A DNA stretch of 64,000 nucleotides from a filamentous cyanobacterium ESFC-1 (lineage in GTDB: Bacteria; Cyanobacteriota; Cyanobacteriia; Cyanobacteriales; Spirulinaceae), in contig KB904821.1 in the NCBI GenBank assembly GCA_000380225.1, positions 4,949,159-5,013,158 on the forward strand. Direction: 5' to 3'. Below the pieces are notes generated by a model. That model had not been told where the DNA came from. It searched no databases and saw only the letters and a program-made list of their open reading frames with translations. Both the position numbers and the translations under genes were made by a program. Positions 6,984-56,196 of the stretch are shown here, in pieces. The stretch's first letter is position 1; every line of letters begins with the position of its first letter.

Positions 6984-7113
6984 TATAGTAATTCTAAATA
7001 AGAACCGACAGCCCGCCCGCAGATTAAAATCTGGGGAACCAACAAGAACAAAGTCCGTTTTCACGGACTGAGCCAATTAAGTTAATGTGCGGAACTTAAT
7101 TGAAATGACTATA
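6984..7113 (+). mobile_element. 130-bp MITE, copy 1 (family A)
   Basis: A 130-bp element is bounded by imperfect terminal inverted repeats: TATAGTAATTCTAAATAAG on the left, and the complement of TATAGTCATTTCAATTAAG on the right. It has no coding capacity. Two internal perfect hairpins are at 7020-7033 (CAGATT/AATCTG) and 7052-7069 (AGTCCG/CGGACT, 6-nt loop). Base-by-base comparison shows an identical copy in inverted orientation at 42321-42450. The TATA ends suggest a TA-targeting transposase of the IS630/Tc1 type, which is inference. Confidence 0.85.
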
Positions 7114-11503: not shown

Positions 11504-14059
11504 ATGACTTCTGTTGCACAGACCACACCTGTTGCTAACAACGATGTATTGTCTGAAACGCCTAGTCCAGTAACCGCGACGGGTGTATATATGACCATTC
11601 ACGGCCACTTCTATCAACCGCCGCGAGAAAACCCTTATTTAAACACAATCGAACGTCAACCGAGCGCCAATCCCTATCACGACTGGAACGAGCGTATCTA
11701 CCATGAATGCTACCGTCCCAACGTTTTCGCTCGCATTCTCAACGAAAATAATCAAGTGGTCGGGATTGTCAATAACTTTGAATATTTAAGCTTTAATATC
11801 GGCCCCACCTTGATGTCGTGGCTGGAAAACTACGATCGCGAAGTCTACGAACAGATTATCGCCGCCGATCGTAAAAGTGCCGAACGCCTCAACGGGCATG
11901 GTAACGCGATCGCGCAAGTTTACAACCATATTATTATGCCCTTAGCCAACAAAAGGGATAAATATACCCAAATTCGTTGGGGGATCGCAGATTTTCGCGA
12001 TCGCTTCGGTCGCGATCCCGAAGGCATCTGGTTAGCCGAAACCGCCGTAGACTACCCCACCCTCGAAGCCCTCGTTGATGAGGGGATTCGCTTTACCATT
12101 CTCGCCCCCTCGCAAGCCGAACGCTGTCGCCTGCTGCCCACCGAGGACAACACCGATCCCCAATGGCACGAAGTCGGGGGATCGCAAATCGATCCGAACC
12201 GTCCTTACCGTTGTTTCTTGGGCGATGGTCGCTATATTGACATCTTTTTCTATGACGGGCCGATTTCGCGAGATATGGGCTTTGATGATGTCCTTAGTAG
12301 TTCCAGTCACCTCGCCGGGCGCTTAGGTCAAGCCATCCGGGGCGATCGCCGTCCCGCCCAACTGATCAACGTCGCCACCGACGGCGAAACCTTCGGCCAC
12401 CACAAACACAGCACCGAAAAATGCCTGGCTTATAGCTTCACCCACGAATTCCCCCATCGCGGTTGGACAGTCACCAACTACGCCCATTACCTCAGCATCA
12501 GCCCTCCTACCTGGGAGGTCGTTCTCAAGCCCGTTACCGCTTGGAGTTGCGCTCATGGGGTAAATCGCTGGCAAGACGACTGTGGCTGCGGTGGCGGCGG
12601 TTTGTGGCATCAAAAATGGCGGCGACCCTTGCGGGATACCTTAAACTGGCTGCGGGATGAATTAGCGGATTTATACGAAGCCTTGGGACGTAGATATTTC
12701 AGCGATCCCTGGTTGACTCGCGATCGCTATATCGAGGTGCTGCGCGATCGCAACCCCGAAAACATCATGCAGTTCTTATTCCGTCACCAAGCCCAACCCC
12801 TCAGCTACAACGACCAAATCGACGCACTGCGCTTGCTAGAAATGCAGCGTCACACCCTGCTAATGTTTACCAGTTGCGGTTGGTTTTTTGAAGAAATTTC
12901 CCGCCCCGAAGGAGTCCAAATCCTGCGCTATGCCGCCCGCGCTATCGAACTGGCCGGAGATGTATCTGGCAAACGCTTGGCCCCGGAATTTCGCCAACGT
13001 TTAGCCGATGCACCGAGTAACGTGGAATTATTCGGCCATGGTCTGAATATTTACGACCAGTTAGTTGTCTCGTCGGTGGTGCGTTTCGAGCAAGTGGCCG
13101 CCCATTACGCCATTAGTTCTTTATTCCAAACCTTTGCCCCCAGCGAACAGCTTTACTGCTACTGCGCCCGCCAAATCGACTTCCAAAAGCAGCAAATGGG
13201 CGCATTAACCCTGGCAGTCGGTCACCTAGAACTGACATCGGATATTACCCGCGAAAGCAAAGAATTTACGTTTGCCGTGTTGCATCTGGGGGGTTGGGAT
13301 TTCCACTGCTGCTTGCAAACCTTTGGCGGTCGCTTGACCTATACCCAAATCAAGGAACAGTTATTTACCGCCCTCAATGATGCCAGCGTTGCTCGCATGA
13401 TGGTGGTAATGACGCGCATTTTCGGTGAAGAAACCTTTAGCTTAGAAGACCTATTCCCCGAAGAACGCCATCGCCTAATTGAACAACTGGCCGAAAATAC
13501 CAAAGACCGCCTCGATCGCCTGTACGAGCAGGTTTACTTAGAAAACTACGGCATTCTCAAAGCCTTTCACCGCGACGAACTCCCGGTTCCTCAAGAATTG
13601 CAAGTGGCCGCCGAAATTGCCCTGGCCCATCGCTGTTTGCAGGGTTTAGATGCTCTTAATCCTGACAATAACGATCCTCCAGGCATTGATAGCCAACTCA
13701 CAGAACTTGAAGCGATCGCGGCAGAAGCCCAAACCATGCGCTGTCACCTCAAACTTCCCGAAGTGAAAGCCGCCCTCGAAAAACTGATCGGCGGTACATT
13801 GCGCTATATCTTAGCCGAACAGGTAGACTTTGCCGAAGAAGACCTAAAACGCCTCGAACGGGCGATCGCGCTCGGTGAAAACCTTAACCTCGGTTTATCT
13901 CTCGCTCGCGTCCAAGAGCTTTATTTCTTCTATCTTCATCACCATCTCATCCCCCAATGTTGTGATGATTCAAAAGCCACTCAATGCACTTGGAAACCCC
14001 ATCAAGTACAGGCGTTACTCAGTCTCGGTGAGAAGTTAGCGGTTGATGTCAGTGTCTAG
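11504..14059 (+). CDS. Glycoside hydrolase family 57 protein with DUF3536
   Basis: This 851-residue protein is probably an alpha-glucan-active enzyme (amylase or branching-enzyme clan). The N-terminal GH57 (beta/alpha)7 domain spans about 25-400. It has the HGHFYQPPRENP motif, IWLAETAVDYPTLEAL (the Glu is the family nucleophile region) and TDGETFGHHKHSTE (the Asp is the acid/base region). The C-terminal half matches DUF3536. Substrate is uncertain; glycogen or sporulenol-like glucans would fit the family. The start ATG at 11504 has an AGGGAAATTA-like ribosome site. No sugar-metabolism neighbours are adjacent. Confidence 0.92.
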   Translation: MTSVAQTTPVANNDVLSETPSPVTATGVYMTIHGHFYQPPRENPYLNTIERQPSANPYHDWNERIYHECYRPNVFARILNENNQVVGIVNNFEYLSFNIGPTLMSWLENYDREVYEQIIAADRKSAERLNGHGNAIAQVYNHIIMPLANKRDKYTQIRWGIADFRDRFGRDPEGIWLAETAVDYPTLEALVDEGIRFTILAPSQAERCRLLPTEDNTDPQWHEVGGSQIDPNRPYRCFLGDGRYIDIFFYDGPISRDMGFDDVLSSSSHLAGRLGQAIRGDRRPAQLINVATDGETFGHHKHSTEKCLAYSFTHEFPHRGWTVTNYAHYLSISPPTWEVVLKPVTAWSCAHGVNRWQDDCGCGGGGLWHQKWRRPLRDTLNWLRDELADLYEALGRRYFSDPWLTRDRYIEVLRDRNPENIMQFLFRHQAQPLSYNDQIDALRLLEMQRHTLLMFTSCGWFFEEISRPEGVQILRYAARAIELAGDVSGKRLAPEFRQRLADAPSNVELFGHGLNIYDQLVVSSVVRFEQVAAHYAISSLFQTFAPSEQLYCYCARQIDFQKQQMGALTLAVGHLELTSDITRESKEFTFAVLHLGGWDFHCCLQTFGGRLTYTQIKEQLFTALNDASVARMMVVMTRIFGEETFSLEDLFPEERHRLIEQLAENTKDRLDRLYEQVYLENYGILKAFHRDELPVPQELQVAAEIALAHRCLQGLDALNPDNNDPPGIDSQLTELEAIAAEAQTMRCHLKLPEVKAALEKLIGGTLRYILAEQVDFAEEDLKRLERAIALGENLNLGLSLARVQELYFFYLHHHLIPQCCDDSKATQCTWKPHQVQALLSLGEKLAVDVSV

Positions 14060-14288
14060 GGGAAACGTTTTTTCCGAGGAGTGACGGGTTGTTTGTTGTT
14101 TGTTGTTTGTTGTTTGTTGTTTGTTGTTTGTTGTTTGTTGTTTGTTGTTTGTTGTTTGTTTTGATGGGATCGGTTTAGAACCATCAGAGACAGTAGACTC
14201 GTAGGGGCGGGGTTTCCCCGTCCAGAGTGGGAGGAGTGGGGCAATCGGCAATCGGCAATCGGCTTGTAGGGGCGGGGTTTCCCCGCCC
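14060..14288. repeat. Intergenic repeats: TTTGTTG heptamers and REP-like palindromes
   Basis: After the GH57 stop there are about ten perfect 7-bp units of TTTGTTG (14088-14160). Two GTAGGGGCGGGGTTTCCCCG palindromic repeats follow (about 14202 and 14267), separated by GGCAATC heptamers. There is no gene. Confidence 0.85.
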
Positions 14289-14475
14289 AATAACCAATAA
14301 CCAATAACCAACAACCAATAACCAATAACCAACAACCAACAACCAATAACCAATAACCAACAACCAACAACCAACAACCAATAACGAATAACCAATAACC
14401 AATAACCAACAACCAACAACCAACAACCAACAACCAACAACCAATAACCAATAACCAATAACCAACAACCAATGA
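14289..14475. repeat. Heptamer array (CCAATAA/CCAACAA)
   Basis: About 27 consecutive 7-bp units, nearly all CCAATAA or CCAACAA, run to the ATG of the HAD gene. The start codon lies in the last unit (CCAATGA). Because 7 is not divisible by 3, all frames of the complement are open and read WLLVIGY-type peptides. I regard these as artefacts. Confidence 0.9.
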
Positions 14476-15146
14476 CCCATGACATACAAAAATATCTCGC
14501 TCTCGCGACGGATTTTGATGGCACTTTAGCTGCCGATGGTTTTGTGGAGGCGGCGACCCTCGAAGCCTTGATAAGATTGCGACAGTCGGGCCGTAAAGTT
14601 ATTTTGATTACGGGGCGACATTTGGCTGATTTGTTGAATGTTTTTCCTGAAATTCAGCAGTGCGATCGCGTGGTGGCTGAAAATGGCGCGTTACTTTACA
14701 ACCCGCAAACTCAAGCGGTGCAATCGTTAGGAGAATCCCCCAGTGAGGCTTTGATCGCTGCCCTCAAAGCTAGAGGGGTTGAGCCTTTGGACATCGGACA
14801 GGGAATTGTCGCGACTTGGCAACCCCACGGGGAAACGGTGGTTCAAGTGATTGAGGAGATGAATCTGAGTTGGCAAGTAATTCTCAATAAGCGGGCGGTG
14901 ATGGCATTGCCCCAAGGAATTGATAAGGCCAGTGGTTTAAAAGCGGCTTGTGCTGACCTGAATTTGCCCCTAGAAGCGACGATTGGCATTGGTGATGCCG
15001 AAAACGATCGTCACTTGCTGGCGGCCAGTGGTTTTGGGGTGGCGGTGGCGAATGCGATCGCGTCTCTCCAAGCAATGGCAGATTGGGTTACGCCATCAGC
15101 GCGGGGACAAGGGGTACAAGAGTTAATCCAACGCTGGCTGGCATAA
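14472..15146 (+). CDS. HAD-family phosphatase (Cof-type)
   Basis: The 224-residue hydrolase has motif I DFDGTLAADG (nucleophile Asp in DxDGT, residues 14-16), motif II ITGRHLADL and motif IV GIGDAENDRHLL. This pattern is that of Cof-type HAD phosphatases acting on sugar phosphates or similar small substrates. The substrate cannot be read from sequence. The ATG overlaps the end of a heptamer array, so the upstream region has no Shine-Dalgarno sequence. A conserved N-terminus close to the nucleophile motif supports this start or one only a few codons later. Confidence 0.9.
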   Translation: MTHDIQKYLALATDFDGTLAADGFVEAATLEALIRLRQSGRKVILITGRHLADLLNVFPEIQQCDRVVAENGALLYNPQTQAVQSLGESPSEALIAALKARGVEPLDIGQGIVATWQPHGETVVQVIEEMNLSWQVILNKRAVMALPQGIDKASGLKAACADLNLPLEATIGIGDAENDRHLLAASGFGVAVANAIASLQAMADWVTPSARGQGVQELIQRWLA

Positions 15147-26300: not shown

Positions 26301-26465
26301 CAATTAACAATTAATAATATAAACAGATTGTCATTATTTTTGACAAGAGAATAAGGGTTGCAGCACGCGAAAAAATGCGGTTTTTAGCTCATCCCGAACT
26401 AACGTTAACAAAAAAACTTCTAATTTACGATTTCATTTATTTTTTCGGTTTATTGAGCAAGCCCC
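26301..26465. other. Intergenic AT-rich stretch
   Basis: Between cobU and the heptamer array I see short TTAACAA-type units and otherwise no gene or structure. Confidence 0.35.
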
Positions 26466-26672
26466 AATTATTAATTATTCATTATTAATTATTCATTATT
26501 AATTGTTCATTATTCATTGTTCATTATTCATTGTTCATTGTTCATTGTTCATTGTTCATTGTTCATTGTTAATTATTCATTATTCATTATTCATTGTTAA
26601 TTATTCATTATTCATTATTCATTGTTCATTGTTCATTGTTCATTGTTCATTGTTCATTGTTCATTGTTCATT
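26466..26672. repeat. Heptamer array (TTCATTA/TTCATTG)
   Basis: About 29 units of 7 bp (TTCATTA, TTCATTG, TTAATTA) lie in one long array. It overlaps the 3' end of the 4Fe-4S gene, supplying its last residues and stop. Confidence 0.9.
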
Positions 26673-27175
26673 TTATTTTTCTTCGCTTTCGCGGCTTTTC
26701 GTCCCATTTTGCCCAGATTTTCTTGTAGCGTTCCCATCGGACAGACGGCACACCAAGCTCGCGGACGGGTTATGATCGCCAAGGGAATCGCGATTAAGCT
26801 GGTAACAATACACATACTGACGAAAATACCGCCAACGGCCATCCAATCTCCCCAAGCGATAACCATGCGGGAAATAAAGATGCTCATAAAAATGCCAAAC
26901 ACAAACCAGCGAAACCATTTGCGGTTGAAAAAGCGCGGCCAAGGACGATTGAGGGTCAGTTTAGCCATGATAATGTCTAAAAATGAGCCACGGGGACAGA
27001 GATTACCGCACCAAAAGCGACCCTTATAGTAAGAAATCGCAATTAAAAACACCATCATTCCGAGCATGAGATAACCCAGGATGGGATAAAACAAACCCCC
27101 GATCGCGATTAGGGGAAACAACCAAATCATGGCCCATTGGGTGGGTTTTCCTTTGAAGGCTTTACTTTTACTCAT
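26654..27175 (-). CDS. 4Fe-4S membrane protein (NapH/NosR-like)
   Basis: The 173-residue protein has about four membrane helices (about 15-30, 35-48, 87-105 and 113-135). Two cysteine clusters follow membrane segments: FWCGNLCPRGSFLD (about 55-68) and AWCAVCPMGTLQENLG (about 140-155). They resemble the CxxxCP motifs of NapH/NosR/RdxA-like electron-transfer proteins, but the count of Cys is lower than in those families. The gene diverges from the sulfide:quinone oxidoreductase gene with a 178-base shared upstream region. The last residues, MNNEQ, and the stop codon are made by the heptamer array. I infer a quinone-linked electron-transfer role. Confidence 0.85.
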   Translation of the reverse strand: MSKSKAFKGKPTQWAMIWLFPLIAIGGLFYPILGYLMLGMMVFLIAISYYKGRFWCGNLCPRGSFLDIIMAKLTLNRPWPRFFNRKWFRWFVFGIFMSIFISRMVIAWGDWMAVGGIFVSMCIVTSLIAIPLAIITRPRAWCAVCPMGTLQENLGKMGRKAAKAKKNKMNNEQ

Positions 27176-30811: not shown

Positions 30812-30830
30812 TTTAATATTTGTGCTTATT

Positions 30831-30860
30831 ACCCCGGTTTTTCCCTTTAAACCGGGGTTT
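30831..30860. terminator. ACCCCGGTTT palindromic terminator
   Basis: The inverted repeat ACCCCGGTTT ... AAACCGGGGT (30831-30858) has an 8-base loop and a short T-run. It follows the last gene of the sulfide cluster. Related palindromes occur at 33158, 42192 and 62033. Confidence 0.65.
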
Positions 30861-33157: not shown

Positions 33158-33190
33158 AAAACCCCGGTTTTTTCAACAAACCGGGGTTTT
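33158..33190. terminator. Bidirectional palindromic terminator
   Basis: A perfect 13-bp inverted repeat, AAAACCCCGGTTT/AAACCGGGGTTTT, with a 7-base loop and A/T-runs on both sides lies between the convergent OYE and radical SAM genes. Confidence 0.75.
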
Positions 33191-40325: not shown

Positions 40326-41165
40326 ATGGTAAACCCTCGACAAGAAGAACGACAAAAAATCATCGAACTCGCTCAACAAGGCGATCCCGATACCATTGCG
40401 GGTTTACTGAATCATAAGTTACGTCCCGAAGGGGTTTCGGTGCAAGTCTCTCGACAGCAAGATTGTTTATCAATTTTCTTAACCTCTCGTACCACCCCCG
40501 ATCGCGATTTTTTGGTGGATTTTATTCGCCAATCTCTGAGTAAATTAAAAGTAAAATCTGGCAAAATTGCCGAAATTCGAGGTTATCTCCAAGACCAAGC
40601 CGATCCGGTGTGGGTAGAAGCCATTGAACTGGAAAACTTAGCCCTGCAAAAAGCGCTTTCGGCTTGGTTACAAGAAAGTACCAGTTTGTTTCCTTGGCAA
40701 ACAGAAACCCTGCCTGAAGTCCGAACGGAAATGTTGCGGATTTACCTCAATGCCAAGGATACTGCCTTACTTCCGGTTGAGTATATCAAAGCGGTTTTGA
40801 AATTGGCCGTTAATGACATTTTACCCGTTCCTTATCCGAGTGAGATTGTGTTAGGGATTTACAATTGGCGGGGGGAAATGCTGTGGTTAGTAGATTTAAA
40901 CCGCTTGTTGGGTTTTTCTTCGGCTTTAACGCCTTATGCCACGGAAGTTCACGCGATCGCGCTGCAAGTCGAACAACAGCTTATTGCCGTGGTTGTGTCA
41001 GACATTCACGACCTCGAACGTCACGATCTCGACTCCCTGCAACCCCCTTCCCCTGGCTTATTTGCCCCGTCCCTACAGTCTTTTGTACAGGGGTATCTGG
41101 TCAGCGCTGATAGCATTATTTTGGACGTTCCTAGTATTCTACAAACATTTACCCAAAACACCTGA
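40326..41165 (+). CDS. CheW-domain protein
   Basis: The 279-residue protein has a CheW adaptor domain in its C-terminal half (about 140-275; IKAVLKLAVNDILPVPYPSEIVLGIYNWRGEMLWLVDLNRLLGF). CheW links receptors to CheA in chemotaxis or type IV pilus motility. The N-terminal 135 residues form an unrelated alpha/beta segment (QREERQKIIELAQQGDPDTIAGLLNH) common in cyanobacterial proteins. Partners are not in the window. The downstream PFL-activase starts 106 bases later. Confidence 0.88.
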   Translation: MVNPRQEERQKIIELAQQGDPDTIAGLLNHKLRPEGVSVQVSRQQDCLSIFLTSRTTPDRDFLVDFIRQSLSKLKVKSGKIAEIRGYLQDQADPVWVEAIELENLALQKALSAWLQESTSLFPWQTETLPEVRTEMLRIYLNAKDTALLPVEYIKAVLKLAVNDILPVPYPSEIVLGIYNWRGEMLWLVDLNRLLGFSSALTPYATEVHAIALQVEQQLIAVVVSDIHDLERHDLDSLQPPSPGLFAPSLQSFVQGYLVSADSIILDVPSILQTFTQNT

Positions 41166-41271
41166 GTTTCCTCAAACTTTCTTTAACATTAAGATCGACC
41201 CTCGGAAACCTGGCTGCGAAATCCCTACAATAAAAGTAGATCAAGATCGACGCGATCGGGAGTTTTTCATA

Positions 41272-42048
41272 ATGGTATTCAATGGGACTGCTTCACCAAC
41301 ACCCAACCCTATTTCTACAACTCATTCAGGACGGATTCACTCCGTCGAAACCTGCGGTACTGTAGACGGGCCGGGAGTCCGTTTTATTATCTTCACCCAG
41401 GGCTGTTTATTACGCTGTCAATATTGTCATAATCCCGACAGTCGCGACTTACACTCTGGAACCGAAGTGACTGTCGATTCTCTGATTACAGAAATCCAAA
41501 AATATCGTTCTTATATGAATGCGTCAGGGGGCGGTTTAACCATTACCGGAGGCGAACCGTTATTACAACCGGAATTTATCGGCGAAGTTTTCCGTCGCTG
41601 TCAAGAATTAAATATTCATACTGCCCTCGATACTTCCGGTTATCCTAAATTTGAACAAGCCAAAGAAGTATTGAAATATGTAAATTTAGTCTTACTAGAT
41701 ATCAAATCTTTTGACCCAAAAATCTATCACGATGTCACCCACGTTGAACTCGAACCGACTCTTAGATTTGCCCGCCATTTGAACGAAATCAACAAGCCCA
41801 CTTGGGTTCGTTTTGTGTTAGTTCCCAATCTCACCGATGCGCCCCACAATGTCGAAGGATTGGCGCAATTTGTCGCCGGATTAGATTGTGTTGAAAAAGT
41901 AGAATTATTGCCCTTTCATCAAATGGGGCAATATAAGTGGGAACAAATGGGATTAAACTATCCCCTCAAAGATACTGAACCGCCTACGGATGAGAAAATT
42001 GCGGAGGTTCGCGGTATTTTTGAAAAGTATGGTTTGAAGGTTGAGTAA
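41272..42048 (+). CDS. pflA: Pyruvate formate-lyase activating enzyme-like radical SAM protein
   Basis: The 258 residues from ATG 41272 (upstream frame extension is not needed) have the motif QGCLLRCQYCHNPDSRD, with CxxxCxxC, and the SAM motif GGEPLLQ. The N-terminal SVETCGTVDGPGVRF is typical of PFL-AE. It would install a glycyl radical on a partner such as PflB. No such partner is in the window, so assignment to PFL specifically is inference. The stop codon TAA overlaps the left end of a MITE at 42048. Confidence 0.88.
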   Translation: MVFNGTASPTPNPISTTHSGRIHSVETCGTVDGPGVRFIIFTQGCLLRCQYCHNPDSRDLHSGTEVTVDSLITEIQKYRSYMNASGGGLTITGGEPLLQPEFIGEVFRRCQELNIHTALDTSGYPKFEQAKEVLKYVNLVLLDIKSFDPKIYHDVTHVELEPTLRFARHLNEINKPTWVRFVLVPNLTDAPHNVEGLAQFVAGLDCVEKVELLPFHQMGQYKWEQMGLNYPLKDTEPPTDEKIAEVRGIFEKYGLKVE

Positions 42049-42180
42049 TACCAAATCCGGTTTCGACACCCCCTTTATCCAGCTAACCCGCCCACGGATT
42101 AAAATCCGGGGAATCGCGAGAGCAAAGTCTGCGAAGGCAGACTAAAAAATAGGTGGGTTATGGCGTATCGGATTTAGTAT
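42048..42180 (+). mobile_element. 133-bp MITE (family B)
   Basis: Ends ATACCAAATCCG (42048-42059) and CGGATTTAGTAT (42169-42180) are inverted repeats with one mismatch. Internal hairpins are CGGATT/AATCCG (42095-42108) and AGTCTG/CAGACT with a 6-nt loop (42126-42143). The arrangement is the same as in the 130-bp family A element, with paired substitutions. Confidence 0.75.
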
Positions 42181-42191
42181 AAAGTGACAAC

Positions 42192-42224
42192 AAAACCCCG
42201 GTTTTTTCAAAAAACTGGGGTTTT
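42192..42224. terminator. AAAACCCCGG-type palindromic terminator
   Basis: AAAACCCCGGTTTT...AAAACTGGGGTTTT with a short loop follows the pflA-MITE region. One pair is G-T. Confidence 0.6.
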
Positions 42225-42262: not shown

Positions 42263-42596
42263 ACTGATGACTCGCCAGAAACTTAATTTTACTTTTTGAG
42301 GCTGTAACCCAAGTGTATTCTATAGTCATTTCAATTAAGTTCCGCACATTAACTTAATTGGCTCAGTCCGTGAAAACGGACTTTGTTCTTGTTGGTTCCC
42401 CAGATTTTAATCTGCGGGCGGGCTGTCGGTTCTTATTTAGAATTACTATAGCGTTGAGCCTTTTCTAGAATCTGCCCTACAGCAAGAAGTTTCTGACCCC
42501 CTTTGGAGGGGCTTGCATCCCCACTCCCCCCCCACTGCCGATTGCCGATTGCCCCTGATTAAGCTGATAACTGAAGAAGCTGCCCACTGCCTAAAA
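42263..42596. repeat. Composite dispersed repeat interrupted by a MITE
   Basis: Outside the MITE (42321-42450) the flanks align with 51449-51660. Shared blocks are GAAACTTAATTT..ACTTTTT, GCGTTGAGCC and AGCAAGAAGTTTCTGAC, then CCGATTGCCGATTGCC heptamers and a TGATAACTGA block. There is no gene. Confidence 0.75.
42321..42450 (-). mobile_element. 130-bp MITE, copy 2 (family A)
   Basis: The reverse complement of this segment is identical, over all 130 bases, to 6984-7113. It is inserted in a dispersed repeat whose other copy (51449-51660) lacks it. Confidence 0.88.
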
Positions 42597-49439: not shown

Positions 49440-49807
49440 TACTAGAGCGCTATGTCTACATATTTTTGTAACAGTTCTCTAAGAACTGTAAGGAAACTGT
49501 GAAGTTTCCTGTACTGATTATACGCATTAAAGCTTAAGTTTTTGGGAAGATTGTTACAGTTTGCAGAAAAAGCTGAGGAATTTATAAAGGTTCGCGATCG
49601 CATTTGAGGGAGGCAGTGGGGGTTTTTGGGGCAATCGGCAATCGGCAATCGGCAATCGGGGTGTAGGGGCGGGGTTTCCCCGTCCAAGGGAGGAGGGGGG
49701 AGAGTGGGGAGAGGGGGGAGAGTGGGGAGAGGGGGAGGAAATTAGCAATTACCAATAACCAATGACCAATTCAGGGATTCTGCCAATAACCAATAACCAA
49801 TAACCAT
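49440..49807. repeat. Repeat-rich intergenic region upstream of rpaA
   Basis: Contains GGCAATC heptamers (about 49624-49656), a GTAGGGGCGGGGTTTCCCCG REP-like palindrome (49661-49685), GGGAGAG-rich purine tracts (49690-49740) and a CCAATAA heptamer array (49749-49805). The rpaA promoter is presumably within the first 150 bases. Confidence 0.75.
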
Positions 49808-50017
49808 TTGTGACAAGTTAAGGTTTTGGTTGAATTGTCAAGTTTCTCGTAGGGGCGGGGTTTCCCCGTCCAATCCTCACCCATTTACCCCGTCAATTTT
49901 GTTGTTACCGTCGCCTCTAACTGCTGTATTCAAAGATAAGATTGGGCGAGGAAACCTGGCCCCTACAAGGGTTTTAGAGCATTCTTGACATTGTGGCTGT
50001 TGCCTTAACTTGTCACG
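49808..50017. repeat. About 210-bp inverted-repeat element, copy 1
   Basis: Ends GTGACAAGTTAAGG and the complement of it, CCTTAACTTGTCAC (perfect 14 bp). Inner sequences also pair: GTAGGGGCGGGGTTTCC on the left with GGAAACCTGGCCCCTAC on the right. A related element is at 54081-54268. It looks like a MITE. Confidence 0.75.
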
Positions 50018-50020
50018 ATT

Positions 50021-50114
50021 AACCAATAACCAATAACCAATAACCAGTAACCAATAACCAACAACCAATAACCAACAACCAACAACCAACAACCAACAAC
50101 CAACAACCAACAAC
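50021..50114. repeat. Heptamer array (CCAATAA/CCAACAA)
   Basis: About 13 units of 7 bp. On the minus strand it begins directly after the stop codon of the acyl-CoA dehydrogenase gene. Confidence 0.88.
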
Positions 50115-50115
50115 C

Positions 50116-51213
50116 TTACAGTCGTAACAACTGAGCTAAACTGGCTTCTAAAACCGCCTCATTTTGCCCGAAGACTGAAAACATCAAAGCTTCGCGATAC
50201 ACCCGTTCTTGAGGATTTTGGGTGAGATTGGCCGCACCACTGGCCGCGATCGCCGCCCCTTGAGCGCAACGTCCCGCCAAATTAATCGCCCAAGCCCGCA
50301 ACTGAAGATGATGTTCAAAAAACCAAAATTCCGGCGATTGTTGTAAGGCTTGATAAATCGAGTCCTGACAATCATTCAGTTCTCGCTTCAAGCTTTGATA
50401 GGCATTTTGAATCGTAGGCAGGGATTTTCGCGAATATTGTTGTTGGAGCAAATCTAATCCGGCTCTGGCGCATCCTAGAGGAAAAAAGCTATGTTTGAGG
50501 ACATTTTGGCGATCGCTTTGATGGATGGCATCGGGAGGGGTAATTTTCACCACGCGATCGCGACTCAACAACCATTGCCCTATTGTCGCCGTTACTGTTT
50601 GGGTAGACTGCATCGCCATCAACGACATTGGCTCAGACAAGCTAATTTCGCCGTTTTCCCTGCGGCAATTCTGAAGCGGCACAACCCCATACACCGCCTC
50701 TCCACTCGGCAGCAACGCCCCAACAATAAAATGCTCAAAAAAGCCGCCTCCCGTAATCCACGGCACAACTCCATCTAAAACATATCCTTCTGAAGTAGAC
50801 TTCGCCTTCATCAACGGTGCGCCGCGCCGACGTAATTGGGAAAACCCAACCCCCAAGCCGATTTCCCCCGTTGCCAAGCCCGGCAGAAACTCCTGTTTTA
50901 AGCCCTCATTTTCACTCTGGGCTAACATCGATCCTGCGCTTTGATGTTGGGTTTGTAAAAAAGCCAGCGCCCCCGAATACCGCGCAATTGTTACCTGAAA
51001 CAAGGCAAATTCTAACAAATTTAAACCTTTGCCTTTCCAATGGGGCGGTACACGCAACGCCAAAGCATCTAACTCCCCTAGACCTTGCCAAGCGCGTCTT
51101 AATGCTTCTGGGTTTTGGTCAATCAGCGTTGCTTGAGGAGCAACTTCGGTTTGAAAATAAGCCTCCACGCGATCGAGGAGAGGATAACGGTAATCCTGAT
51201 GATTAATCTTCAC
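50116..51213 (-). CDS. Acyl-CoA dehydrogenase-like flavoprotein
   Basis: The 365-residue protein matches the acyl-CoA dehydrogenase fold: N-terminal helical domain (1-110, YPLLDRVEAYFQTEVAPQA), a middle beta domain (GLGVGFSQLRRRG...YVLDGVVPWITGGG) and C-terminal helical bundle. The catalytic Glu cannot be placed with confidence. Homologues act on acyl-CoA or acyl-ACP, or on nitro/amine compounds. Cyanobacteria rarely use beta-oxidation, so a biosynthetic or detoxifying role is possible. The GTG start at 51213 directly follows an array of CCAATAA heptamers, so no ribosome site is visible. Confidence 0.85.
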   Translation of the reverse strand: MKINHQDYRYPLLDRVEAYFQTEVAPQATLIDQNPEALRRAWQGLGELDALALRVPPHWKGKGLNLLEFALFQVTIARYSGALAFLQTQHQSAGSMLAQSENEGLKQEFLPGLATGEIGLGVGFSQLRRRGAPLMKAKSTSEGYVLDGVVPWITGGGFFEHFIVGALLPSGEAVYGVVPLQNCRRENGEISLSEPMSLMAMQSTQTVTATIGQWLLSRDRVVKITPPDAIHQSDRQNVLKHSFFPLGCARAGLDLLQQQYSRKSLPTIQNAYQSLKRELNDCQDSIYQALQQSPEFWFFEHHLQLRAWAINLAGRCAQGAAIAASGAANLTQNPQERVYREALMFSVFGQNEAVLEASLAQLLRL

Positions 51214-51217
51214 GATT

Positions 51218-51336
51218 TGGTTATTGGTTGTTGGTTGTTGGTTATTGGTTGTTGGTTGTTGGTTATTGGTTGTTGGTTGTTGGTTATTGGTTGTTGGTTA
51301 TTGGTTGTTAGTTGTTGGTTGTTGGTTATTGGTTGT
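51218..51336. repeat. Heptamer array (TTGGTTA/TTGGTTG)
   Basis: About 17 units of TTGGTTG and TTGGTTA in the 5' region of the acyl-CoA dehydrogenase gene (minus strand). Confidence 0.9.
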
Positions 51337-51385
51337 AATCTATTTTCCTCCCACTCTTCCCACTCTTCCCACTCCTCCCCCTCCT

Positions 51386-51661
51386 CCCTTGGGCGGGGAA
51401 ACCCCGCCCCTACACGCCCACTGCCAACTGCCCCTGATTAAGCTGATAACTCTCTTTGAAACTTAATTTACTTTTTCTCGGCTGAAAGCTTAGTATAGTC
51501 TGGCGTTGAGCCTTTTTATAGAGTCTACCCTCTAGCAAGAAGTTTCTGACTTCCTTTCTGGGGTAGAATTGCACTCCCCTCCCGACTGCCGATTGCCGAT
51601 TGCCGATTGCCCCTTAATCGCTGATGACTGACAACTGATAACTGAAATAACCTGCCCTAGT
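51386..51661. repeat. REP-like palindrome and composite repeat, copy 2
   Basis: CTTGGGCGGGGAAACCCCGCCCC (51388-51413) is the inverted form of the REP-like palindrome. After it, 51449-51660 aligns with the flanks of the MITE at 42263-42596 (GAAACTTAATTTACTTTTT, GCGTTGAGCC, AGCAAGAAGTTTCTGAC, CCGATTGCC heptamers, CTGATAACTGA). The MITE is absent here. Confidence 0.75.
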
Positions 51662-52444: not shown

Positions 52445-53935
52445 ATGAAACAGCTTTTCAAGATGATACGACCCACTGATTCAGGCTCGAAACTCTCGAA
52501 AATGAGCCGCGTTATTGCGAGTTTTTTAATGGGCAGTAGTTTGGCGCTACAAAGCGGTGCGATCGCGCCAGTTATGGCTCAGACGAGCGCTTATTGTCGC
52601 TTTAACGATGCCCTAATCTCTCAAAAAGAATCCTTGCGTCGAGAAGCTTTTGGGGGGAATGAAGGGGCAAAAACCCGCTATCAAGAGATTGTTCGCCAAC
52701 ACGCTCAATATTTACAACAATGTCGCTCGCGCACTTGGCCGCGCACTCAGGCGATTTGGCTGCGGTTGTATCCCTGTGATGCCAAACCGGGGGTGTTGGA
52801 GTCGGTGTTGGATCATATTGTGAACAAGGGTTATAACCAAATTCACGTTGAGGTATTTTTCAACTCCCAGGTTTTATTACCCGAAAACGATAATCCTACC
52901 CCTTGGTCATCGGTGGTGCGGTCGAGTGGGGCCGAAGATGTGGATTTATTGGCGCAGGCGATCGCGAAAGGTCGAGAAAGAGGCTTAAAAGTGTATGCCT
53001 GGGCGTTTACCATGAACTTTGGCTATAACTACGGTTTACTGCCCGACCGCCAAAGCGCGATCGCCCGCAACGGTAAAGGTCAAAACAGCTTATCCTATGT
53101 CGAAGACGGGGCGCAACTGTTTATCGATCCCTACAATCGCCAAGCCCAAAGCGACTACAGGCAAATGACCAACGCGATCGCGACTCGCCGACCCGATGGG
53201 ATGCTATTCGATTATATTCGCTATCCTCGCGGCTCAGGAACCGCCTCCGTCGCCGGAAATGTCCAAGATTTATGGATTTATAGCCCCGCCTCCCAACAAA
53301 GCCTCATACAACGAGGTTTAAATCGCCAAGGCCAAGATTTAATCCGAATTTTCATTGAAAAAGGCACAATTACCGCCAGCGACCTAGCCGCCGTCCGAAG
53401 CCGTTACCCCAACGAATCCACCCCCAACTGGCAAGGCCGCAACACCGCCGCCAGTAGTCTCAGCGCCCTGCGTAGCCAACTCTGGACGCTTAGTGTCGCC
53501 CATGCGGCCCAAGGCGTGATTGATTTCCTCGATATGGCCGCCCGTCCTTTTCAAAATAACGGGATGCAAGCCGGGGCCGTCTTTTTCCCCACCGCCAATC
53601 AAGGAGTAGGTCAACAAGGCTACGACTCCCGCTTGCAACCCTGGGATCGCTTTTCTCCTGCCCTAGAATGGCATCCCATGGCTTATGCGGTCTGCGGCAG
53701 TCCTAACTGTATTGTTGAAGAAGTGCAGCGCGTCGTTCAACTGGCCCCCTCTCAAACCAAAATTGTCCCAGCCCTCGCGGGTTACTGGGGCAGACGAGAC
53801 GGCAATCGCCCCTCCCTCGAAGAACAAATGCAAGCCCTACAACGTGCCACCCCCCAAATCCAAGCGGTGAGCCATTTTGCCTATTCTTGGCAAGAACCCC
53901 AATCGGATCAAGCCCGCCGTTTTTGTGAGTTGTAG
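52445..53935 (+). CDS. Secreted family 10 glycosidase-like protein (GHL10/DUF187)
   Basis: The 496-residue protein has a signal peptide (about 1-46, ending near VMAQ) and a GHL10-type TIM-barrel domain. Conserved segments are AIWLRLYPCDAKPG, YNQIHVEVFFNSQV, AWAFTMNFGYNYGL, LFIDPYNRQAQSD and GMLFDYIRYP (DYxRYP signature, acidic active-site region). Such proteins probably cut glycans at the cell surface; the target is not known. The stop codon is directly followed by a TTGGTCA heptamer array. Confidence 0.88.
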   Translation: MKQLFKMIRPTDSGSKLSKMSRVIASFLMGSSLALQSGAIAPVMAQTSAYCRFNDALISQKESLRREAFGGNEGAKTRYQEIVRQHAQYLQQCRSRTWPRTQAIWLRLYPCDAKPGVLESVLDHIVNKGYNQIHVEVFFNSQVLLPENDNPTPWSSVVRSSGAEDVDLLAQAIAKGRERGLKVYAWAFTMNFGYNYGLLPDRQSAIARNGKGQNSLSYVEDGAQLFIDPYNRQAQSDYRQMTNAIATRRPDGMLFDYIRYPRGSGTASVAGNVQDLWIYSPASQQSLIQRGLNRQGQDLIRIFIEKGTITASDLAAVRSRYPNESTPNWQGRNTAASSLSALRSQLWTLSVAHAAQGVIDFLDMAARPFQNNGMQAGAVFFPTANQGVGQQGYDSRLQPWDRFSPALEWHPMAYAVCGSPNCIVEEVQRVVQLAPSQTKIVPALAGYWGRRDGNRPSLEEQMQALQRATPQIQAVSHFAYSWQEPQSDQARRFCEL

Positions 53936-54083
53936 TCATTGGTCATTGGTCATTGGTCATTAGTCATTGGTCATTGGTCATTGGTCATTGGTCATTGGTC
54001 ATTGGTCATTAGTCATTGGTCATTGGTCATTGGTCATTGGTCATTGGTCATTGGTCATTGGTCATTGGTCATTGGTCATTGGT
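53936..54083. repeat. Heptamer array (TTGGTCA, STRR2)
   Basis: About 20 units of TTGGTCA (some TTAGTCA) begin with the stop codon of the GHL10 gene (TAGTCATTGG). Confidence 0.92.
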
Positions 54084-54290
54084 GACAAGTTAAGGTTTTG
54101 TCCCATTTTCAAGTGCCTTGTAGGGGCGGGGTTTCCCCGCCCAAGTTGACGTTATTGGGCGCGATTTCAGTCCCAAATCTTCCTGTTGAAATTGTACGCG
54201 CGGAACCTCACCCCTACACAGATGTAGGACTCTCTTGATATAAGGATTTCGCGCTTAACTTGTTACGAATGGTCATTGGTCATTGGTGAC
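54081..54290. repeat. About 190-bp inverted-repeat element, copy 2, with REP-like palindrome
   Basis: GTGACAAGTTAAGG at 54081, the REP-like GTAGGGGCGGGGTTTCCCCG palindrome (about 54119-54143), then CGGAACCTCACCCCTACA and CGCTTAACTTGTTACG at about 54253. It is homologous to 49808-50017. A further half end, GTGACAAGTTAAGG, follows at about 54286. Confidence 0.7.
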
Positions 54291-55089: not shown

Positions 55090-55859
55090 AACACGAAATT
55101 CAACAACAGCGACCCCACCCCGGCGAGGAAGTTGCCGAAATTACCGCCACCGCCGCCGCCGCGATTGGGAGGATTTGCCGCCAGTTCGATCACCTCAGCG
55201 AACTGTTCTGTCACTTCTGAGCCAGTTGGGTTGTTTTGGGCTTCAAACAGAGAATTTGCCAGTTGAGCGTCGTGCATGGCGGCTCCGTAGTTGCCTAAGC
55301 GAAAGAACGAGACACCGCGACCGAGATAAGCGGGGGCAAATTCTGGGTCTAGACCTAATGCTTGATTATAGTGCGCGATCGCGGCCTGATAATTTCCCCG
55401 TTCGGCTTCGAGTGCGCCCCAGGTGTAAAAATTCTCCTTGGTTCCGGCATAATTCGGGATGCCAAAAGTGCCTTGAATGTGGGCTTGCTGTAAACTTGTG
55501 CCTAAAAGGTTGGCATTGACTAGATAAGCGTCTCTTAAGTCGGTTCCGGTTAAGTTTGCGCCGACTAACACCGCCCCAGTCAAGTTTGCGCCATTGAGCG
55601 ACGTTCCGATCAGATTCGCCCCCATGAGATTCGCCCCGGTGAGATTGGCTTGGCTAAGGTTGGCATAACTCAAATCCGCCCCTTCTAAATTCGCCCCGGC
55701 GAGATTGGCCATGGCGAGTCCTGCCCCCCTTAAGTCGCAGTTGGGGCATTGTCGGGTGGAAAGGAGTTGGCTGGTGTGTTGCAGGTTTTCGGCTTTGACG
55801 GGGGCCAGCCAGCTTAGGGCGGTAACAACGGTGGTGGCGATGATGGGGAGTTTTGTCAT
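55086..55859 (-). CDS. Secreted pentapeptide-repeat/TPR protein
   Basis: The 257-residue protein has a signal peptide (1-23, ending VKA), then CPNCDLRGAGLAMANL and about 20 pentapeptide repeats (about 40-125), and a TPR region (about 145-200; YQAAIAHYNQALGLDPEFAPAYLGRG). It ends with a Gly-rich stretch and a hydrophobic tail. It probably acts in the periplasm or thylakoid lumen. Its start is next to a long heptamer array upstream. Confidence 0.85.
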   Translation of the reverse strand: MTKLPIIATTVVTALSWLAPVKAENLQHTSQLLSTRQCPNCDLRGAGLAMANLAGANLEGADLSYANLSQANLTGANLMGANLIGTSLNGANLTGAVLVGANLTGTDLRDAYLVNANLLGTSLQQAHIQGTFGIPNYAGTKENFYTWGALEAERGNYQAAIAHYNQALGLDPEFAPAYLGRGVSFFRLGNYGAAMHDAQLANSLFEAQNNPTGSEVTEQFAEVIELAANPPNRGGGGGGNFGNFLAGVGSLLLNFVF

Positions 55860-55875
55860 TTGTCTTTAGTCCTTG

Positions 55876-56150
55876 GTCATTTGTTGTTGGTTGTTGGTTA
55901 GTAGTAAGGGATGAGCGCCCTTGTATTGGTTGTTGGTTATTGGTTGTTGGTTATTGGTTATTGGTTGTTGGTTATTGGTTATTGGTTATTGGTTATTGGT
56001 TATTGGTTGTTGGTTATTGGTTGTTGGTTATTGGTTATTGGTTATTGGTTGTTGGTTATTGGTTATTGGTTATTGGTTGTTGGTTATTGGTTATTGGTTA
56101 TTGGTTATTGGTTATTGGTTGTTGGGCGGGGAAACCCCGCCCCTACAAGC
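55876..56150. repeat. Long heptamer array (TTGGTTA/TTGGTTG) plus REP-like palindrome
   Basis: About 34 units of 7 bp run from 55876 to 56123, then an inverted GGGCGGGGAAACCCCGCCC palindrome (56124-56150) and CCGATTGCC heptamers. It lies between the pentapeptide/TPR gene and the RND gene. Confidence 0.92.
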
Positions 56151-56196
56151 CGATTGCCGATTGCCGAAAACACTGATGACTGATGACTGAAAACCC

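Follow-up and report, generated by a model that had tools for sequence, protein, structure and literature searches.

A REP-like double hairpin, probably orphaned of its Y1 enzyme, inside two MITE families of a filamentous cyanobacterium

The locus and its two MITE families

The window analysed here, a stretch of 64,000 nucleotides, belongs to a genome of 5.63 Mb in 3 contigs. The octamer GCGATCGC, which we take to be HIP1, stands in the window 108 times where composition predicts about 0.8, an abundance typical of a cyanobacterium. At the locus under study a MITE of family B lies behind an ORF for a pflA-like protein, and a MITE of family A follows on the opposite strand (Table 1). Since the duplicated target TAA of the B element is the stop codon of this ORF, the end of the pflA-like gene is preserved. 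The two family A copies of the window are identical over 130 nt.

Table 1. Positions of the MITEs, their hairpins and the adjoining ORF in the window.
Feature	Position	Strand	Remark
pflA-like ORF, upstream of B	40936-42048		pyruvate formate-lyase activase-like protein
B left target-site duplication	42046-42048	.	TAA, the stop codon of the pflA-like ORF
Family B MITE, 131 bp	42049-42179	+	ends TACCAAATCCGG.../...CGGATTTAGTA
H1 of the window B copy	42091-42111	+	outer CCC/GGG and one-base bulge; core 42095-42108
H1 arms in window B	42095-42100 / 42103-42108	+	CGGATT / AATCCG
Linker between H1 and H2 in window B	42112-42125	+	AATC type in this B subfamily
H2 of the window B copy	42126-42143	+	AGTCTG-CGAAGG-CAGACT
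H2 arms in window B	42126-42131 / 42138-42143	+	AGTCTG / CAGACT
B right target-site duplication	42180-42182	.	TAA
Family A MITE copy	42321-42450	-	ends TATAGTAATTCTAAATAAG.../...TTGAAATGACTATA; TA duplication by eye, inseparable from the ends
H1 of A copy 42321-42450	42401-42414	-	CAGATT..AATCTG
H2 of A copy 42321-42450	42365-42382	-	AGTCCG..CGGACT
Second family A MITE copy	6984-7113	+
H1 of A copy 6984-7113	7020-7033	+	CAGATT..AATCTG
H2 of A copy 6984-7113	7052-7069	+	AGTCCG..CGGACT

Family B has the features of a MITE, namely terminal inverted repeats, a target duplication, non-coding sequence and many copies. Read by eye, the duplications of other B copies were TTA, TCA, TGA or TAA, that is TNA, which presumably suggests an IS5-type transposase. 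An IS630-type partner of B was ruled out, as no DDE_3 (PF13358) gene was found in this genome. The B ends gave 46 exact matches (11 with the reversed pattern), none of them spaced 0.7-3 kb apart as space for a transposase would require, which rules out an autonomous element with exact B ends; a partner that is diverged or from another family may exist. Plasmid DNA searched with the A and B elements gave no match.

Other repeats were seen in the window. A terminator-like hairpin (AAAACCCCGGTTTTTT...GGGGTTTT) occurs at 42192-42224, directly behind the B MITE, and again at 33158-33190 and 30828-30860. Tandem arrays of heptamer type (TTGGTTA / CAATAAC and variants) lie at 14036-14524, 26464-26681, 49740-50157, 51161-51392, 53911-54128 and 55845-56165, and several of them adjoin a GGGGCGGGGTTTCCCCGCCC hairpin repeat.

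The two-hairpin module and its paired changes

The part common to both MITE families is a module of two hairpins, about 57 nt long, which on the minus strand of our alignments starts with H2, continues with a linker some 11-17 nt long that usually has TAG ahead of H1, and closes with H1. BLAST found 42 places in this genome with the B query and 44 with the A query; the exact two-hairpin pattern matched 54 times and the same pattern read backwards 0 times, while R1, a covariance model built from copies of this genome only, gave 110 matches. For the alignment 63 copies were taken in full, four of 67 rows (score 3) being left out as chance. When MITE ends were sought around these copies with up to 2 mismatches, 26 were flanked by a complete set of A ends and 10 by one of B ends, a single A-like end stood beside 10 and a single B-like end beside 6, and 11 had neither kind (the ten aligned B copies of a separate comparison are not all identical with the ten both-B-end rows). 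Because MITE ends flank both sides in 36/63 copies, A and B appear to have multiplied the module here; because 27/63 copies are without one or both ends (16 with a single end), the module is better regarded as a unit of its own than as a part peculiar to one MITE. It is intergenic: none of the 63 copies lies mostly within an ORF of at least 200 aa, though such ORFs make up 64% of the same DNA. Pairs in opposite orientation no more than 300 bp apart numbered five among 99 of the 110 matches, one of them being the B and A MITEs of the window. Three further arrangements were seen in this genome, namely an A MITE apparently nested in the H1 hairpin of another module (G000:C1:3592980), an A MITE apparently nested in the linker of another (G000:C1:2182801), and four tandem modules at exact 210-bp steps (G000:C1:4175127-4175815).

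The sequence-only reading of this DNA had drawn attention to hairpin arms that differ between the families by matched changes, with CAGATT/AATCTG and AGTCCG/CGGACT in A and CGGATT/AATCCG and AGTCTG/CAGACT in B. All these hexamers are present in the window, and the paired changes are real. Its statement that loop length is kept holds among the window copies (the hexamers are 2 nt apart in H1 and 6 nt apart in H2) and fails for the family as a whole, four sibling B copies having a 7-nt H2 loop. The contrast between A and B likewise stands for the window copies; a clean split between the families was rejected, since 3/26 A copies with both terminal inverted repeats carry the B-type H1 pair. The two-ended B copy at 53667, for its part, shows the H2 pair of type 'A'.

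How far these differences arose base by base is another matter. On a tree of the 26 both-end A copies, from which the stems were left out, three changes of the H1 pair were counted, and they are accompanied by others nearby, in the linker or ahead of the stem, as in block exchange. In the window B copy, the H2 loop CGAAGG is the reverse complement of the CCTTCG found in three other B copies, the closest siblings having ACGAGAG. Compensation from A to B as first proposed therefore holds in part, hairpin and linker having partly been replaced together in an exchange of whole modules, and the window example, real as it is, looks like module exchange plus a reverse-complemented loop and so is no proof of selection alone. 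These same observations favour a reading with no structural selection at all, in which template switching or arm inversion made the paired changes in one step and gene conversion spread them. We think this improbable, because one-sided intermediates of the kind expected from stepwise change are present (C.A at H2 pair 5 in 3 copies and at H2 pair 7 in 21/63), and because a pairing of 96-98% over many genomes, with variable stems and a conserved linker, needs continued upkeep.

Covariation within this genome alone is modest. H1 pair 6 was A-T in 35/63 and G-C in 24/63 copies, and H2 pair 5 was C-G in 50/63 and T-A in 9/63; three of 15 pairs showed changes on both sides, a number reached by 297/500 shuffles. 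There were 35 cells changed on both sides against 15.3 after shuffling, and this cell count and the covariation score beat all 500 shuffles. Copies from other genomes gave very strong support. Among 91 distinct copies of relatives 97.6% of cells were paired, 14/15 pairs had changes on both sides, and 356 cells were changed on both sides against 97.5 shuffled, with at most 42.9% paired in the slid control. At 29 loci R2, a broader covariance model built partly from modules beside flanked Y1 genes, yielded a second set, 57 copies that had no part in building it; here 96.3% of cells were paired, 12/15 pairs were changed on both sides, and 193 such cells compared with 54 shuffled, the slid control reaching at most 46.8%. 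Both sets were aligned to the structure model, which leans towards pairing, and the slid controls gauge the signal that remains. The number of extra pair types did not exceed the shuffles in either set (65/500 for the 91 copies, 165/500 for the 57). The alignment of more copies that the sequence-only reading had called for thus bears out its proposal of selection for pairing, a constraint strongly supported by both cross-genome sets.

The stem sequences of relatives are quite different from one another; linker and spacing are less variable. Linkers of other copies are of CTAA or AACC type. The CTA on the plus strand, which is TAG near the H1 foot on the minus strand, is absent from the window B copy and was found near the H1 foot in 73/91 and 46/57 distinct copies of relatives against 24/52 here (79, 49 and 25 by a looser count). 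A REP-type GT[AG]G at the 5' foot is not kept; TAG alone is common and the base before it varies. Linkers here come in two variants, GGCTAA and GGAACCAA. Both resemble linkers of distant genomes (L232, L188), namely GGAAACCAAT and GAGAACCAGA, so that their alternation would be old or recurrent.

Whether the structure serves in DNA or in RNA had been left open by the sequence-only reading, and our evidence leans to DNA. A structured RNA is expected to show G.U pairs well above A.C. Across genomes the counts were 14 G.U v 12 A.C (10 v 6 in H1, 4 v 6 in H2) and, in the second set, 7 v 5, though the model scores G.U better. Since G.U pairs do not outnumber A.C, DNA is favoured over RNA, and the balance, as indirect evidence, fits recognition of folded DNA better than an RNA role. 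A module acting as RNA, be it a terminator pair, an mRNA stabiliser or a small RNA whose function keeps the pairing, would agree with the stable predicted folds (z -4.03 for the B element, -3.45 for the A element), with the intergenic place of all 63 copies examined, and with H2 in this genome, where A.C 31 (21 at pair 7) v G.U 4 on the plus strand become U.G if read from the minus strand. H1 behaves in the opposite way, with G.U 12 v A.C 2 on the plus strand (pair 1 omitted), and because the hairpins lean opposite ways here, no one strand accounts for both; a strand-specific RNA signal was therefore rejected. An RNA role would moreover not predict that the module flanks one type of Y1 gene (see below), Rfam had no family at cut-off in the window, and in 20 loci of relatives the sole Rfam match to a module was a CRISPR-repeat model, so that we consider the RNA reading unlikely. 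That match (CRISPR-DR28 on the H1 stem of L205, 1502-1525, 36.6 v a cut-off of 35 bits) is probably false and is relevant to CRISPR calls in cyanobacteria.

The module in relatives and the Y1 gene beside it

With R1, for which up to 141 candidates were scored per genome, the module was found in 15/39 genomes including this one, with 15-45 copies in seven relatives of other families and 0-3 in twelve genomes of the same family. R2 gave matches in 59/292 genomes of the phylum and 35/116 genera, its counts per genome being lower bounds because 19 candidates were scored in each. As R2 finds at least 19 modules in G002, one of the twelve same-family genomes, the scarcity in the own family is partly a matter of the reach of R1. 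A looser pattern scan of genome contigs gave apparent chance matches over many phyla (L109-L184), which were excluded from the analysis of the module.

The hairpins had first been read as a property of the MITEs, and this did not survive the comparison: around 99 copies of relatives the scan met a single exact B end and not one exact A end, and the one-mismatch matches nearby lay partly inside the modules themselves. That the hairpins serve the transposition of the MITEs, as subterminal sites of a DDE transposase, would explain the shared inner position of the module in both families. It is very unlikely in view of these relatives, of the 11/63 copies of this genome without an A or B end and the 16 with one only, and of the fact that A and B differ in ends and in duplications. 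As the agent acting on the hairpins, a Y1 enzyme of subclass 1.2 type is likelier than the MITE transposase, since its gene is flanked by the module in relatives.

The module often occurs in doublets there. In the 29-locus set a second module lay within 250 bp at 22 loci, and the 26 neighbour pairs were 21 tail-to-tail (H2 inside) and 5 head-to-head; among 56 loci of the R1 set this was so at 20, with 17 pairs tail-to-tail, 5 head-to-head and 2 tandem (n=24). Three of the neighbour pairs are overlapping matches (gaps -22, -28) and may be spurious.

Among the Y1 (PF01797) genes in the genomes of relatives, one kind is embedded in modules. The frame 361-783 of L191 has a module on either side, and at L229-L236 and L255 genes for similar proteins have one no farther than about 130 bp away, to one side or both. 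R1 placed a module at 9/10 loci of this kind, which we call subclass 1.2-type (L191 and eight others; L234 was missed), and at 1/33 other Y1 loci, which are 27 genes by their places. R2 found it at 10/10 and at the same 1/33; the 10/10 is circular, since some of the modules that R2 was made from lie next to these genes, and the R1 result is not. A further 20 Y1 loci, picked by eye and mostly for longer frames, had no module by R2. Flanking by other Y1 types was thus rejected. The sole exception among the 33 is L251 (2001-2111), where a tail-to-tail module pair lies about 150 bp behind an IS200-type gene.

In a tree of Y1 proteins (L224 and L226 left out; L227 without an aligned piece), the 10 flanked genes and two Bacteroidota plasmid genes formed a clade of 12 (100/100), from which the 24 other Y1 rows, mostly of IS200 type, were separate. 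Two types of the protein were seen, and the linkers too were of two types. The motif Y---Q--HH was exact at 8/10 flanked loci; L229 has Y---H--HH, and L255 has stops in the gene and an aligned piece that ends before the motif. The gene is low copy, with one per genome at E < 1e-20 and two of different type in G023. The L230 protein matched eight PDB sequences, all named transposase and including ISHp608, and the NCBIfam name for the flanked proteins is IS200/IS605 transposase. Against the RAYT model NF047646 (cut-off 80 bits) two of three proteins scored 23 and 20.6 and the third had no match. TnpA-Y1 subclass 1.2 (Quentin et al. 2018) is described as having Y---Q--HH, about 148 aa and low copy number in Cyanobacteria and Bacteroidetes (PMC6006769). 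By signature, separate clade and low copy the flanked genes appear to belong to it, the match being to the description of the subclass rather than to the HMM or sequences of that paper.

In this genome a search with one query, as used across all genomes, found no subclass 1.2-type gene. The Y1 matches here were an IS200-type gene, a gene split in two and a couple of remote matches, none near a module. By these searches, this genome has lost the gene or never had it, and as far as they reach the modules here are orphaned of both the Y1 enzyme and a MITE transposase. Elsewhere, too, gene and module often occur without each other. Ten of 39 genomes had at least 5 R1 matches, four of them with the gene (G014, G023, G027, G038) and six without it (G000, which is this genome, G013, G029, G032, G033, G035), and R2 adds module-bearing genomes without the gene (G002, G015, G020 and G026, with 4 to at least 19 modules). 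Conversely, the gene was present with no R1 match in the genome search in G018 and G025, and with one in G007, G010 and G016; R2 gave at least 18 modules in G016 and at least 14 in G018. The link between gene and module therefore rests on adjacency, not on co-occurrence.

Hairpins also adjoin the related genes of Bacteroidota. The Persicobacter gene (L329) has paired hairpins next to it with an 11-nt linker ending TTAG, the stretch occurring at 10 places in two records; a second Persicobacter copy (L331) has a linker ending TCAG and, by eye, a matched change in one stem. A different hairpin repeat, present at 3 places, adjoins the Bernardetia gene (L328). R2 scores nothing in two Bacteroidota loci or in one Kovacikia locus, and since the Bacteroidota hairpins were read by eye and R2 is blank there, the claim across phyla is the weaker one.

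Comparison with known repeats and proposed origin

REPs and REPINs are short intergenic hairpins, dispersed and with compensatory changes, that flank a low-copy Y1 gene and often form inverted doublets (PMC3116915, PMC6006769). Cleavage of single-stranded DNA is known from the IS200/REP group of Y1 enzymes, and REP hairpins are a substrate that TnpA-REP cuts (PMC6006769). The module resembles the REP/REPIN-RAYT system (TnpA-REP, REPtron) in being dispersed, in its compensatory changes and in flanking a low-copy Y1 gene; its intergenic place is a result for this genome only. Unlike a REP, it consists of two same-orientation hairpins with a conserved linker, and its foot is N-TAG at best rather than GT[AG]G. 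Unlike that of a RAYT, its gene is of subclass 1.2 type, for which Table 1 of PMC6006769 gives REP 'no' and the paper generally no IS200-type ends; against that listing, double hairpins flank every one of the ten subclass 1.2-type genes that we examined in relatives. Searches of open-access literature on REP/RAYT, small dispersed repeats and cyanobacterial MITEs gave no report tying subclass 1.2 to hairpins.

Among cyanobacterial repeats, GTAG-tagged REPs (GTAG-12, -15, -16) are GTAG-footed hairpins in Anabaena, Nostoc and Cyanothece, and the GTAG-15 dimers of A. variabilis lie inside long palindromes beginning TATAGGA (PMC3733652). Cyanobacterial MITEs, Nezha and others, are mentioned in PMC3733652 and PMC10969869. 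A and B are like them in having terminal inverted repeats, short duplications and no coding capacity, and unlike them in that, with different ends, they share an inner module which also exists apart from them. H1 alone may already be catalogued as a GTAG family or as an SDR element. SDR elements (Elhai et al. 2008, Genome Res 18:1484) are reportedly cyanobacterial repeats of 21-27 nt with a common structure backed by compensatory mutations, are said to lie sometimes within minitransposons, and are not known to be linked to a Y1 gene.

In conclusion, the module was not invented by the MITEs, and in relatives it flanks a subclass 1.2-type Y1 gene. The paired changes of its hairpins probably reflect their recognition as DNA. 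We give a probability of roughly two in three to the reading that it is a REP-like double hairpin that no longer has its Y1 enzyme in this genome and is now carried in two MITEs with terminal inverted repeats. The Y1 enzyme would recognise the folded single strand and spread the module, which would demand paired stems and leave their sequence free to drift. Action of such an enzyme agrees with the place of the module next to the gene, with a linker that is conserved and stems that vary yet stay paired, and with the doublets arranged tail to tail. The enzyme may then have been lost from this genome, or have acted elsewhere. Copies caught between the ends of the two MITEs (the duplications being TA for A and TNA for B) would have been multiplied by the transposases of those MITEs, and modules may have been exchanged between elements.

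A wider proposal, towards which we incline only slightly, is that a REP-like double-hairpin system of its own (H2, a linker ending N-TAG, H1) exists in Cyanobacteria and Bacteroidota with the subclass 1.2 proteins as its enzymes, and that such hairpins can outlive the enzyme through capture and amplification in unrelated DDE-type MITEs. If true, this would be a change of vehicle for a hairpin repeat. Single-strand transposase relatives presented in 2018 as neither insertion sequence nor REP-associated would gain a candidate substrate, and the abundant two-hairpin repeats of cyanobacteria a possible source. The genome studied here would then be a case of a hairpin repeat persisting without its enzyme inside other mobile elements.
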